From Ceratorhiza oryzae-sativae (lineage: Eukaryota; Basidiomycota; Agaricomycetes; Cantharellales; Ceratobasidiaceae): 64,000 bases of DNA. Location of the stretch: positions 1 to 64,000 of the forward strand of contig JARWMV010000067.1 of NCBI GenBank assembly GCA_030998015.1, given 5' to 3'. The notes under the pieces are model-generated. The model ran no database searches, was not told where the DNA came from, and worked only from the letters and a program-made list of their open reading frames with translations. Positions 184 through 64,000 of this stretch are shown here, one piece after another (within the stretch, counting starts at the first letter, position 1; each line of letters opens with the position of its first letter). A program made the position numbers and the translations under genes.

Positions 184-405
184 CCGCGCGCGTTAGTTGC
201 TGGTGGGACTTGTCCCACCAACCAACGTGAGCAATCGCAACCGTTTGCGATTGCTAGTGCGCGGCATAATATCGATATTTAGCCGCCGGCTGAAAATGAC
301 GAACGGTCGTCATTTTCTACGAGGGAATCTTTATGGGAGGTAGCCTGGACCATGAGACTCATGGTCAAGGCTACCTCATCTGAGGATTCCCTCTAACGCC
401 GGCGG
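184..405 (+). mobile_element. DHE-1, 222-bp form
   Basis: Plus orientation. Module A runs from CCGCGCGC to GCGCGG and encloses the hairpins TGGTGGGAC/GTCCCACCA and AGCAATCGCAA/TTTGCGATTGCT. The linker contains AATATCGATATT. Module B runs from CCGCCGGC to GCCGGCGG and encloses GAAAATGACGA/TCGTCATTTTC and GAGGGAATC/GATTCCCTC. In this long form the last loop holds a further GAGGTAGCC...GGCTACCTC hairpin of about 50 bp. No coding function is apparent. Confidence 0.95.
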
Positions 406-762
406 AGGCCTAACCCTGTCGTCAGCTACTGAATGGCGACATTGCAATTGACCCCCAATGCCTTACAGCATGTTGGGGGGCAATTACCCAGGCATCCGCA
501 TTGGGAGGCCATTGCCTTGTTGGGGGTCTAAAGGGTCTAAGTTCTACTGATGCGCCGCATCCGCAGCCCATCTCTGTGTTAACTAGTTAGGTTTAACATT
601 TCGTGAGAAATGCACCTAATTTGTTTGCGGAGGATTCTCCTATTAATAAAGGAGATCTCCATCACACGCAGAGGACTTGGAAACCCAAATTGGGACTTAT
701 ACAACCAACATTGTTAGATAAGTTCCAACTCATTCACTCTCAAAAGCGTTTAGTCTTAGAGA
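406..762. other. No gene seen; hairpins only
   Basis: Contains a CCCCCAATGCCTTACAGC-type hairpin (about 450-485), more TTGGGGG inverted pairs to 530, and an AGGATTCTCCT/AGGAGATCTCC pair near 630-660. No convincing gene. Confidence 0.5.
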
Positions 763-810
763 ATGAAGAGGAAACATGAAGTCATAAGATCGATAAATAA
801 AAACCAAACC

Positions 811-1680
811 ATGCTAAACACAAAACAAACTTATCTTTTTATTAAAGTAATAACCTTCGCATTATTAATCTATGTTGTTTATACTCAGTCAATTGACCCC
901 CCAAACATGTGCAGCTACGCTGCATTGTTTGGGGGGGCAATTGCCCCCCAACATGCTGTAAGGCATTGGGGGTCAATTGTTAGCGAATTACACTTTTATA
1001 CTGGCCTAGTATTTTGCTCCAATTCGATAGCGCCCATTAAACCCACACGGCTAAGTAATGAACCTCAATTTAATTTTTCAAAAGAGTTAAAAGAAATAAT
1101 CATTGGTCTTATTCTAGGGGATCTTAATGTTCAGAAAGATAAACGAGCTATTAATGGTAATGCTTGTTTGAGATTTCTCCAAAGTACTCCGCGCGCGTTA
1201 GTTGCTGGTGGGACTTGTCCCACCAACCAACGTGAGCAATCGCAACCGTTTGCGATTGCTAGTGCGCGGCATAATATCGATATTTAGCCGCCGGCTGAAA
1301 ATGACGAACGGTCGTCATTTTCTACGAGGGAATCTTTAGGATTCCCTCTAACGCCGGCGGGAGTATTTAGAGTACCTTTATACAAAATTCCAAGATTATT
1401 GTTCTGTAGCTCCTAAAATCTTAACACCCCGACCTGATAAAAGAACGGGTAAAGTTTATCCTACTATAAGATTTCAAACTCATGCACTACCTTGCTGTAA
1501 TGAATTCTTTGATTTATTCTATCCGGAGGGGAAAAAAATAATTCCTGCAAACATTGGGGATCTTTTAACTCCTCTGGGATTAGCTTTTTGGTTATGTGAG
1601 GACGGAACTTTCGAAAAATCAAGTCAAAGAGTGATTCTTTGTACAGAATCATTTGCAATTGACGAAGTAGAGGCCCGCGC
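811..1680 (+). pseudogene. LAGLIDADG_2-type homing endonuclease, interrupted
   Basis: Pieces in order: a hydrophobic start (MLNTKQTYLFIKVI), a hairpin insert at about 893-980, the first motif block (KELKEIIIGLILGDLNVQ), DHE-1 at 1189-1360, then the middle and second motif region (EYLEYLYTKFQDYC, GKKIIPANIGDLLTP, LAFWLCEDGTF, TESFAIDEVE), ended by DHE-1 at 1675. The LILGDL and WLCEDG blocks fit the single-ORF LAGLIDADG_2 family that cuts intronless alleles at group I intron sites. The C-terminal 60 or so residues are missing. Non-functional as it stands. Confidence 0.8.
1189..1360 (+). mobile_element. DHE-1, 172-bp form
   Basis: Splits the LAGLIDADG ORF between residues LRFLQST and EYLEYLY. 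Confidence 0.95.
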
Positions 1681-1846
1681 GCGTTAGTTGCTGGTGGGAC
1701 TTGTCCCACCAACCAACGTGAGCAATCGCAACCGTTTGCGATTGCTAGTGCGCGGCATAATATCGATATTTAGCCGCCGGCTGAAAATGACGAACGGTCG
1801 TCATTTTCTACGAGGGAATCTTTAGGATTCCCTCTAACGCCGGCGG
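1675..1846 (+). mobile_element. DHE-1, 172-bp form
   Basis: Truncates the same LAGLIDADG ORF after IDEVE. Its flanks GGC and GCC extend the terminal palindrome. Confidence 0.95.
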
Positions 1847-2181
1847 GCCTTTAATTCCCCTAAATAACCTTTAGATTTGCCTTCGCAAATCACCCCGCGG
1901 CAGTCCCCTGTCGTCTACTGACCCCCAAACATGTGCAGCTACGCTGCATTGTTTGGGGGGCAGTAGTAAAACTGGGGGGCCCGTCCAAGTATTGGCGCCC
2001 GGTCAATGAAATTGACACGGCCGCCAATACCCTTGCCAGGTTAAACTTGTTATTCTATTAATACTCCAATCCCCTTACCTTGCGCCCACAATACTAGTTC
2101 TTGGAGTTCTTGGCATCTATCGGAAGTGCCTTAAATTCTAGAGGATACTAGTAGGTTGTAATCTTTGAGCCAGCCAAAACG
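1847..2181. other. No gene seen
   Basis: Holds a CCCCCAAACA...TGTTTGGGGGG hairpin at about 1921-1966, a GGCGCCCGGTCAA/TTGACACGGCCGCC imperfect pair near 1993-2030, and AT-rich sequence without a recognised gene. Confidence 0.5.
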
Positions 2182-2214
2182 TAGATATCATCAGTTCGAG
2201 TCTGATTACTCATA
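2182..2214 (+). pseudogene. tRNA-Gly 3' half, relic
   Basis: Matches positions 121-153 of tRNA-Gly (last anticodon-stem bases, variable loop, T arm, 3' acceptor strand) with one substitution. No matching 5' acceptor strand lies upstream. A DHE-2 copy starts about 10 bp later. Confidence 0.85.
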
Positions 2215-2224
2215 TCAAACAATC

Positions 2225-2435
2225 ATACCCCCGCTTAGGGTCAACCAGCATTGTATTTATATATAAATACATGCTGTTGACCCGAGGGGTAATGGATATC
2301 GAGGCCGCGTTCGCGGCGAGGTATTGCGAGGTACCCTGGAACTTTAAGTTCCAGGGTACCTCGGAATCAGACGCCGCGCGCACGCCAGGGCCGCCTTGGC
2401 TTAAGCCAAGGCGTTCGCAGGCGTGCACGGGTCAT
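2225..2435 (+). mobile_element. DHE-2
   Basis: First hairpin: CCCCCGCTTAGGGTCAACCAGCATTG...TGCTGTTGACCCG around an AT-rich TATTTATATATAAATA core. Second, branched module: GAGGCCGCGTTCGCGGC, CGAGGTACCCTGG...CCAGGGTACCTCG, GCCTTGGC/GCCAAGGC, ending GCACGGGTC. Flanked by TCATA on both sides, a candidate 5-bp target duplication. Confidence 0.9.
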
Positions 2436-62189: not shown

Positions 62190-62400
62190 TGCCCCCGCTC
62201 TATCGGCTAAAATCTTAGGTGTAACCCAAGATTTCAGCCGCCCTGCCTAGAGAACTGCGCTTTAGCGCACGTCTTGGCAGGGGTAATAAAGCGGAGGGTC
62301 AACGACCCGTGGGCATTGTTAACGAGGCCGCGTTCGCGGCGAGCCGCGCGCACGCCAGGGCCGCCTTGGCAAGCCAAGGCGTTCGCAGGCGTGCACGGGT
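62190..62400 (+). mobile_element. DHE-3 (mirror)
   Basis: Partner of 19262-19472. Confidence 0.88.
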
Positions 62401-62630
62401 AATAATAATTTTACGGGAAAATTTACTCCTTTGATTCCAATCCGATGCCCACCTGCTAAAACTTTATATTGGATTTCACTTACCCTCAGACGGCAGATTC
62501 CTACTCGCAATCCTTCTACCATAGGCCCGGACTGAGTAGCGCCAAGGAGGTCGACAAACAAACCCTTAGTTGGTCTTGAATTATTAAATTCCGTGATTTT
62601 TGATAAAAGAGACGGTAATGTCAACAACAC
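62400..62630 (-). CDS. ORF of unknown function (mirror)
   Basis: Partner of 19032-19262. Confidence 0.25.
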
Positions 62631-62794
62631 TTAATTTATTACGTTGAATCTAGCTGAACTGTAAATAAGTTAAGTAAGCCCGTAGGGCCCAAAACCACCG
62701 TAAAGGTGTTTTTGGAAGCAATTTTTCATTGCACGCATTACTAAATGTGACCAATTTCGGTTGGTCAACAACAATTTAGTCTGCCCATAAGGAT

Positions 62795-62966
62795 CCGCGC
62801 GCGTTAGTTGCTGGTGGGACTTGTCCCACCAACCAACGTGAGCAATCGCAACCGTTTGCGATTGCTAGTGCGCGGCATAATATCGATATTTAGCCGCCGG
62901 CTGAAAATGACGAACGGTCGTCATTTTCTACGAGGGAATCTTTAGGATTCCCTCTAACGCCGGCGG
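62795..62966 (+). mobile_element. DHE-1, 172-bp form (mirror)
   Basis: Partner of 18696-18867. Confidence 0.95.
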
Positions 62967-62976
62967 AATTTAAATT

Positions 62977-63117
62977 ATGATTTTTTTAATGTTTTTAATT
63001 GGAATTTTGGGATTTATATTAAATAGAAAAAATATTGCCCTATCAGTCAGTTCCATCGAGACAATGATACTAGCTGTATCATTTCTTGTTTTAATTAGTT
63101 CTTTTGGTCTCGGTGTA
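62977..63117 (+). pseudogene. nad4L: nad4L-like N-terminal fragment (mirror)
   Basis: Partner of 18545-18685. Confidence 0.7.
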
Positions 63118-63118
63118 C

Positions 63119-63290
63119 CCGCGCGCGTTAGTTGCTGGTGGGACTTGTCCCACCAACCAACGTGAGCAATCGCAACCGTTTGCGATTGCTAGTGCGCGGC
63201 ATAATATCGATATTTAGCCGCCGGCTGAAAATGACGAACGGTCGTCATTTTCTACGAGGGAATCTTTAGGATTCCCTCTAACGCCGGCGG
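63119..63290 (+). mobile_element. DHE-1, 172-bp form (mirror)
   Basis: Partner of 18372-18543. Confidence 0.95.
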
Positions 63291-64000
63291 GCTATAGCAG
63301 GAGCATTGTGGGTAATTATTTTTAATTTAGTCATTGCAACTATTACGTTATTCTTGTTTATTTTTGAAGAACCCTTTTTTGTTTTAAGTACCCTTCTTGA
63401 TAAAACTTTATTAGTTGAATTTCCTGAAATTGATTCAACAACTCTTATGGCCCTTTCACCCTACTTTGTCACTGGTTTTTGTGACGCTGAGTCTTGTTTT
63501 AATGTCTCGGTATCCAAAAGGATTAAATCAATAGCCCCCCAATGCGTTACCAAGCCTGTAAGGCACGCCCTACGGGCCAGCGTATTGGGGGGCTATCACC
63601 CCCCCAAACAATGCAGCGTAGCTGCATTAGTTTGGGGGGTCAACTGTTGGATATGTTGTACAAGCGAGGTTTGTCATAGAACTTCAGTTAAGTGATATAG
63701 ATTTATTGTTTAAAATACAATCTCCGCGCGCGTTAGTTGCTGGTGGGACTTGTCCCACCAACCAACGTGAGCAATCGCAACCGTTTGCGATTGCTAGTGC
63801 GCGGCATAATATCGATATTTAGCCGCCGGCTGAAAATGACGAACGGTCGTCATTTTCTACGAGGGAATCTTTAGGATTCCCTCTAACGCCGGCGGGGGGA
63901 TTGGGACAGTCACAAAAGATCCTGTAAAAAATGTTTGCCGATTTAGTGTTGTAAGTATCAAAGATATTAATAATTTAATTATTCCTCATTTTACTGAATA
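63291..64000 (+). pseudogene. LAGLIDADG_1 endonuclease after nad4L-like fragment (mirror, cut by window end)
   Basis: Partner of 17661-18371; first motif LSPYFVTGFCDAES at about 63456. Confidence 0.8.
63724..63895 (+). mobile_element. DHE-1, 172-bp form (mirror)
   Basis: Partner of 17767-17938. Confidence 0.95.

Follow-up and report, generated by a model that had tools for sequence, protein, structure and literature searches.

A four-hairpin element dispersed in the mitochondrial DNA of Ceratorhiza oryzae-sativae and its apparent replacement of short target pieces

The stretch of DNA analyzed here, hereafter called the window, comprises bases 1-64,000 of the 84,169-bp contig JARWMV010000067.1 (abbreviated as C67) in the 48.8-Mb, 253-contig assembly of Ceratorhiza oryzae-sativae. 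Matches to chitin synthase domains, a mainly fungal family, indicate that the host is most likely a fungus; the flagellar marker IFT46 gave no match, but none of its controls did either, and it was not used to place the host. The contig is mitochondrial, as judged from a part of nad5, tRNAs, group I introns and the gene content of its sister contigs, among which C77 and C81 carry genes for NADH dehydrogenase and for LAGLIDADG and GIY-YIG endonucleases. Dispersed along the window is a hairpin element whose copies extend onto many further contigs of the same assembly, including C97 and C149, which also bear pieces of cox1; among the 40 of 767 candidate matches that were scored, all lie on contigs C67 to C227. 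Between positions 184 and 63,895 there are 55 full copies, each retaining the central palindrome and both ends, with 29 on the plus and 26 on the minus strand and a total length of 10,337 bp. These values agree with an earlier reading of the sequence alone (hereafter the sequence-only reading), which had described 55 copies in both orientations and occupying about 10 kb over the same span. However, the 55 copies cannot be taken as an independent count, since the region 17,662-64,000 is a 99.95% self-palindrome about a centre at 40,831; hence 18 of the copies are mirror duplicates and 37 represent separate places, and every feature count in the window is similarly inflated. Some of the 37 separate copies have flanks in common (for instance 7219/37460 and 8519/10530) and may be duplicates of a single composite insertion. 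Left of 40,831, the element makes up 17% of contig C67.

The unit is 172 bp long, has fixed ends CC...GG and contains 54% G+C. Folding of the exact unit produces, on either strand, two GC-clamped modules of two hairpins apiece, which is the palindrome-joined layout that the sequence-only reading had proposed. Module 1 occupies unit positions 1-81 and module 2 positions 100-172, whereas the AT linker between them contains AATATCGATATT at 85-96. The RNA fold of the unit has an energy of -92.4 kcal/mol. The shuffle test used the stretch 1193-1364, which is offset by 4 bases from the unit, and returned a fold energy of -56.8 kcal/mol for one strand (z of -10.75) and of -56.2 kcal/mol for the other (z of -10.64), with none of 200 shuffles being as stable; in this offset stretch, the first clamp is shortened and unpaired in the centroid. 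No Rfam family matches any copy, either at gathering scores across the entire window or at E <= 0.1 across bases 1-41,500, and a 30-base pattern of the element has no exact match in collections of prokaryotic and viral contigs, a weak negative in view of what these collections contain.

To follow the element beyond the window, its junctions were collected with 25-nt keys from C67, C77, C81, C136 and C227 and from the first parts of C188, C169, C149 and C144. This survey yielded 98 junctions, many of them present in more than one contig; six pairs look like a single locus read twice with small differences, leaving about 90. The copies are nearly invariant, as previously claimed: 89 of the 98 sites share one sequence throughout the first 148 bp, and so do 34 of the 37 separate copies to the left of 40,831. 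Six of the nine deviating sites are indel-like, partly in stretches where contigs disagree, and the other three have 1-4 substitutions. The length of 172 bp, earlier given for the unit as a whole, holds for 37 of the 55 window copies; the others measure 222 bp (14 copies), 215 bp (two), 212 bp and 223 bp (one each) and harbour one more hairpin within the hairpin-4 loop. Among the 98 sites, the 222-bp form occurs at 24, the 212-bp form at six and forms of 215, 214 and 269 bp at one each, and all 24 sites of 222 bp share a prefix of 150 bp and a suffix of 23 bp with the short form. In all 37 longer bodies from the contigs examined the extra hairpin lies inside the loop of hairpin 4, with additional small changes elsewhere in three of them (221, 223 and 224 bp). 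The element has thus undergone nested growth, in which hairpins enter that single loop to give the forms of 222, 212, 215, 214 and 269 bp.

Copies lacking one end are confined to contig ends and fold-backs. When the unit was compared by blastn with nine sequences (C67, C77, C81, C136 and C227 whole, the first 10 kb of C188 and the first 2 kb of C169, C149 and C144), 146 matches covered its full length, and the partial ones, 83 from the left and 84 from the right, could be joined in pairs as longer copies. Unpaired pieces were limited to contig ends, to the fold-backs in C81 and C67 and to one 47-bp copy at C77:27,712-27,758, an internally deleted derivative that keeps both ends and has hairpin 4 as its sole remaining hairpin. 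The frequent 5' truncation of LINE-like elements was not found in these nine sequences, nor were independent half-elements; leaving aside contig ends and fold-backs, the 47-bp deletion is the single partial copy. The flanks of this deleted copy (C77:27701-27780 region) resemble those of gene site 55 (see below), with the same small hairpin insert.

At its junctions the element is a complete unit with CC...GG ends, found in both orientations, without detectable direct duplication, bordered by a pyrimidine on the left and a purine on the right (Y/R rule) and with a tendency of the flanks to be inverted. None of the 98 junctions lies inside another copy of the element. A GC-rich composite repeat is adjoined at its right edge in 11 sites and at its left edge in 9 to 11, depending on the key. 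For the analysis of flanks, 88 two-flank sites were reduced to 68 simple ones by subtracting 11 left-composite and 9 right-composite cases, then to 59 with unique flanks and to 45 after dropping 14 in hairpin-family contexts, as defined by a word list chosen by eye. Position -1 is a pyrimidine in 55 of the 59 sites (binomial 8.5e-13) and position +1 a purine in 58 (binomial 1.0e-16). The flanks also tend to be reverse complements of each other, as though the loop of a short hairpin had been replaced: allowing one G bulge, the inverted run in the 59 sites averages 1.78 vs 0.91 in shuffled pairings, and 13 pairs reach at least 4 nt vs a shuffle mean of 1.5 and a maximum of 8. By local inverted alignment of the 45 sites with 16-nt flanks, the best of four widths tried, the mean score is 9.64, compared with 8.37 (sd 0.33) when flanks are re-paired, for a p of about 1e-4, and with 8.55 (sd 0.44) when points of the Y/R type are drawn at random. 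As direct repeats, the flanks do not score significantly above shuffles at any of the four widths (p of 0.83, 0.96, 0.72 and 0.11, the value at 16 nt being 0.96). Target-site duplication, as in class II transposons and MITEs, is thus rejected, for there is no direct repeat above shuffles and 5-10 nt are lost at eight sites within genes.

These eight sites come from homing-endonuclease genes, which exist as many diverged copies in the mitochondrial DNA, so that an interrupted gene can be compared with its relatives. At least 35 sites have both flanks matching one reading frame, and 12 of them pass a stricter filter; sites 32 and 59 (8 and 11 nt lost) failed it and were not counted. From the 12, we set aside as repeat-derived sites 8 and 37, which seem to have gained 39 and 42 nt, as well as site 51, where 5 nt are lost with respect to one paralogue and the left flank is composite; site 55 is treated apart (see below). 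Compared with their paralogues, the remaining eight sites lose 9, 7, 9, 10, 10, 9, 7 and 5 nt; should the terminal CC or GG belong to the target, up to 4 nt would have to be subtracted from these values. For the copy at 1189..1360, six of seven paralogues indicate that 9 nt of the gene have been replaced and the remaining one 6 nt; its left frame half (763-1188) alone has no Pfam match. As a control, 107 random splits were made in the same genes, 70 of which had a paralogue: the difference was zero in 53 of the 70, and the 17 non-zero values span -44 to 32, including one 9 and one 6. The paralogue comparison indicates, therefore, that the element replaces a short piece of its target, apparently 5-10 nt where measurable. 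At site 80, the flanks are AGTC and GACT, and 5 nt between them are lost. An origin of such flanks by inverted duplication of the target was considered here and discarded, since the paralogues permit a simpler reading, in which the 5 nt were a loop that the element replaced. Insertions in genes occur in both orientations. They look recent, because the alignable flanks of the interrupted genes are otherwise readable, with 1 stop in 718 residues.

Alleles without the element were sought in this isolate and none was found: the joined flanks of 95 sites, compared with the contigs examined, gave junction-spanning matches for 14 of them, which on visual inspection were taken for paralogues or neighbours of repeats. 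Equally, overlapping contigs that were compared show no presence/absence differences, and nad5-region pieces of three further contigs, which align to window 1-17,000 at >=99.9%, carry the same copies. One paralogous site, C81:41692 / C67:64642 (the latter being the mirror of 16799-17020), is occupied in both places at the same insertion point within diverged flanks, by the short form in one and the long form in the other, with no substitution in the shared body. Of note, positions -4/+4 of these flanks shift jointly from T/A to G/C, as if the flanks pair.

Table 1. Positions of representative copies, unit parts and the fold-back in the window
Feature	Coordinates	Strand	Remarks
Long 222-bp copy	184..405	+	50-bp extra hairpin in hairpin-4 loop (about 334-383)
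Typical 172-bp copy, CC...GG	1189..1360	+	Interrupts homing-endonuclease-like reading frame; from fold and paralogue comparison
Module 1: GC clamp, hairpin 1 (about 1201-1231), hairpin 2 (1235-1260)	1189..1269	+	From unit fold
Central palindrome AATATCGATATT linking modules	1273..1284	+	From sequence
Module 2: GC clamp, hairpin 3 (1297-1322), hairpin 4 (1326-1348)	1288..1360	+	From unit fold
212-bp copy	2802..3013	+	Different hairpin within same hairpin-4 loop
Copy inside LAGLIDADG-type gene (gene on -)	20856..21027	+	7 nt replaced, 8/8 paralogues agree
Copy inside LAGLIDADG-type gene (gene on -)	33021..33192	+	9 nt replaced, 3/3 paralogues agree
Separate copies left of fold-back centre	184..40253	19 on +, 18 on -	n=37
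Mirror copies of those left of 40,831, non-independent	41408..63895	.	n=18
Fold-back palindrome	17662..64000	.	Centre 40,831, on small native hairpin

The palindrome of the window is not isolated, for several mitochondrial contigs contain long self-palindromes, each about a centre of its own. We examined 13 fold-back centres in 10 contigs (two each in C67, C77 and C97); C184, inspected as a further case, is not a fold-back. All 13 centres fall on a hairpin, whereas in the window about 4.8% of bases are situated 4 nt or less from a hairpin dyad. In eight of them the inner 27-57 nt exactly match the same hairpin at places that are not centres; in the other five the hairpin was judged by eye from the sequence and has small indels. 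Four of the 13 centres lie inside the element described here: in hairpin 2 in C67, in hairpin 4 in C81 and, twice, in the nested hairpin in C97. Matches to miRNA families at 40,767-40,894, which are below gathering scores, are a product of the fold-back and not regarded as RNA genes. Regarding the course of the contigs, C67, C77 and C188 agree until about 6792-6899 and then follow three diverging paths, one of which is a fold-back. C67, C188, C169, C149 and C144 have a common start base, and C136 and C227 begin at C67:1582 on the opposite strand; these shared starts (window 1-1582) reflect either the way the assembly paths terminate or true ends of molecules.

Hairpins are generally abundant in this DNA: the window contains 342 perfect ones (stem >=9, loop <=8) vs 1-4 in five first-order Markov shuffles. 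Other GC-rich hairpin families are numerous, for example at 2281-2440, 3594-3700 and 4010-4170, and some are fused into composites several hundred bp long, which start with ACCCG and end with GGGGGC. With respect to genes, the nad5 part lies at 12957-13829 on the minus strand and is 100% identical over that span to a JGI protein representing 122 member sequences. A group I intron above the Rfam cut-off is found at 31746-31988 and at its mirror 49677-49919, together with weaker group I intron matches at 19611-20052, 24589-24875, 36103-36502 and 39512-39868. Cox1 is split in several pieces over many contigs of the assembly, and the mitochondrial genome thus looks large and intron-rich.

We consider with moderate confidence that these observations reflect a non-coding mobile DNA element that inserts at the DNA level, guided by hairpins, during repair or replication. 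The target would be a short hairpin or cruciform, the loop of which could be opened or trimmed by a nuclease, or else DNA that is single-stranded at a break or replication fork. The resulting gap would then be filled with one copy of the element, either by template switching from a donor copy or by the joining of a folded single-stranded copy, while the two clamped three-way junctions may hold the element compact with its ends close together. The host or mitochondrial endonucleases are candidate sources of the required enzymes. PF03175, the DNA polymerase of linear plasmids, gave no match, but its controls likewise gave none. The same hairpins might also make a polymerase or a broken end double back, thereby producing the long fold-back palindromes. 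The sequence-only reading had proposed a mobile, non-coding element dependent on outside enzymes, which fits well with the same ends at about 90 junctions, the two orientations and the insertions in readable genes. Its further suggestion of endonuclease cutting followed by repair is compatible with the loss of 5-10 nt, but unproven.

Several aspects of the data weigh against this interpretation. The numbers of lost nucleotides depend on diverged paralogues instead of true empty alleles, and on taking CC...GG as the ends of the element; two of the eight measured sites are based on one or two paralogues. Gene site 55 shows a gain of 30 nt and lies within another small hairpin insert. Inverted flanks are present at only some of the eight sites, clearly at site 80 and with a G bulge at sites 1 and 53, and many targets are without a clear hairpin, given that just 13 of 59 flank pairs reach 4 nt or more. 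The inverted signal is weaker at the other widths, with p of 0.0011, 0.009 and 0.022 at 12, 20 and 28 nt. The stop count covers alignable flanks only, so that gene decay is underestimated. As to the fold-backs, C188 and C107 share a centre sequence, as do C142 and C110, which leaves at most 11 independent centres, and the fold-backs may be artefacts of the library or assembly.

A bolder version of the same idea, which we find doubtful, is that of a transposon with no enzyme of its own in which DNA structure acts at every step: the fold would hold the ends together, the element would replace the loops of short hairpins and avoid its own copies, and its hairpins would prime a fold-back in vivo that reshapes the whole mitochondrial chromosome into long palindromes. 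It is also unlikely that the element spreads via RNA, with a transcript being reverse-transcribed and then inserted as suggested for Allomyces. The lack of detectable target duplication, the same argument as used in the cited text on Allomyces (PMC2800124), and the very stable RNA fold (-92.4 kcal/mol) would suit this route, but it is opposed by the lack of copies simply missing one end, contig ends and fold-backs aside, and by the unbiased orientation in the window (29 vs 26) and in genes. Moreover, no reverse transcriptase was found in ten mitochondrial ORFs scanned, a partial survey, many being present elsewhere in the assembly among the 150 of 811 candidates that were scored. We regard as rather improbable the action of a dedicated nuclear transposase that recognizes structure, making its cuts at the clamp bases and then integrating the element in folded form, in the manner proposed for REP-type tyrosine transposases on bacterial REP palindromes. 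The exact CC...GG ends, the Y/R rule, the compact fold and the absence of self-insertion (0 of 98 sites) would all suit such an enzyme; yet nothing in the whole assembly matches Y1_Tnp (PF01797), for which 5 of 14 control genomes were positive in the same search, so that this route has lost its main candidate. Furthermore, clean single-strand insertion is not expected to leave a target loss of 5-10 nt.

The remaining alternatives concern the age and the reality of the copies. Most insertions could be old, their identity being maintained by gene conversion while little movement takes place today, a scenario to which we assign a similarly low likelihood. The pair C81:41692 / C67:64642, with its diverged flanks around an unsubstituted shared body, agrees with it, as does the absence of presence/absence differences among overlapping contigs, but the alignable flanks of interrupted genes are readable (1 stop in 718 residues) and about 90 different junctions still require movement. 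The near-identity of the copies is best explained by recent spread, and homogenization among them is possible. That chimeric or fold-back contigs have merely multiplied a smaller set of copies is very improbable and is rejected as a full explanation: although 18 of the 55 window copies are mirror images, the mitochondrial contigs overlap heavily and some sites share flanks, the window still has 37 separate places, and about 90 junctions are left in the contigs examined, many of them recurring in more than one contig.

For the hairpin elements of mitochondria, the literature names transposition, RNA intermediates and recombination as routes of insertion without choosing among them, as far as the consulted portions of these works go. 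Here a single genome has about 90 clean junctions, and for eight of these the interrupted gene has paralogues, which renders the signature of insertion readable and testable, this signature consisting of a loss of 5-10 nt, inverted flanks, the Y/R rule and no self-insertion. If the fold-backs are real molecules, then the same hairpins would also explain inverted forms of the mitochondrial chromosome.

Several known systems resemble the one described here. The bacterial REPIN/REP sequences (PMC3116915) likewise consist of paired hairpins without coding capacity, which are presumed to move together, but they are tied to a Y1-type transposase, for which no match was found in this assembly. The GC clusters of yeast mitochondria such as GC42 (PMC4478555) are palindromic and mobile-like, and clusters merge with one another; in contrast to our element, for which no direct repeat exceeds shuffles, they are flanked by direct repeats of AG or ACT. 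The LIMP palindromes of Lobosphaera (PMC4524435) are a repeated mitochondrial palindrome with proposed cruciforms and a link to rearrangement, even if LIMPs have stems of pentanucleotide repeats, 19 copies and rare rearranged read pairs, whereas we find long hairpin-centred fold-backs in the assembly. Palindrome-centred inverted duplications resembling these fold-backs arise through a hairpin-capped end in E. coli without SbcCD and RecA (PMC3315005), a case involving a 246-bp palindrome in a bacterial chromosome and not, as here, a mitochondrion known from its assembly alone. The organelle palindromes of Volvox carteri (PMC2670323) share very many copies, both orientations, nesting and a location in LAGLIDADG-bearing introns, but are hairpins of 11-77 nt, AT-rich in mitochondrial DNA, instead of a fixed 172-bp unit with four hairpins.

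The nearest relatives appear to be the double-hairpin elements (DHEs) described in early fungi and fission yeasts (PMC10085805; Paquin et al. 2000, cited therein and in PMC2800124). Considering these and the nested palindromes of Volvox (PMC10085805, PMC2800124, PMC2670323), the novelty that the sequence-only reading had attributed to the element was too strong a claim, even if the layout of four hairpins and two clamps is unmatched in the parts of these works consulted; neither for this layout nor for loop replacement did we recognize a description in the literature, as judged from titles, abstract beginnings and passages. In common with DHEs (PMC2800124, PMC10085805), our element is found in fungal mitochondria as dispersed near-identical copies with paired hairpins and presumed mobility, and it lacks flanking duplications like the DHEs of Allomyces, for which this very lack was given as the reason for an RNA intermediate (PMC2800124). 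It differs in having two double-hairpin modules, each with its own GC clamp and with an AT palindrome between them, a distinction drawn from descriptions and not from sequences, and in the about 90 junctions, the 5-10 nt of target apparently replaced and the measured preference for inverted flanks. The two adjacent stem-loops that characterize DHEs are present twice over, as two modules of two hairpins each. Given the mitochondrial location, the paired hairpins and the absence of duplication, we place the element with the double-hairpin elements of fungal mitochondria, as a large four-hairpin variant.

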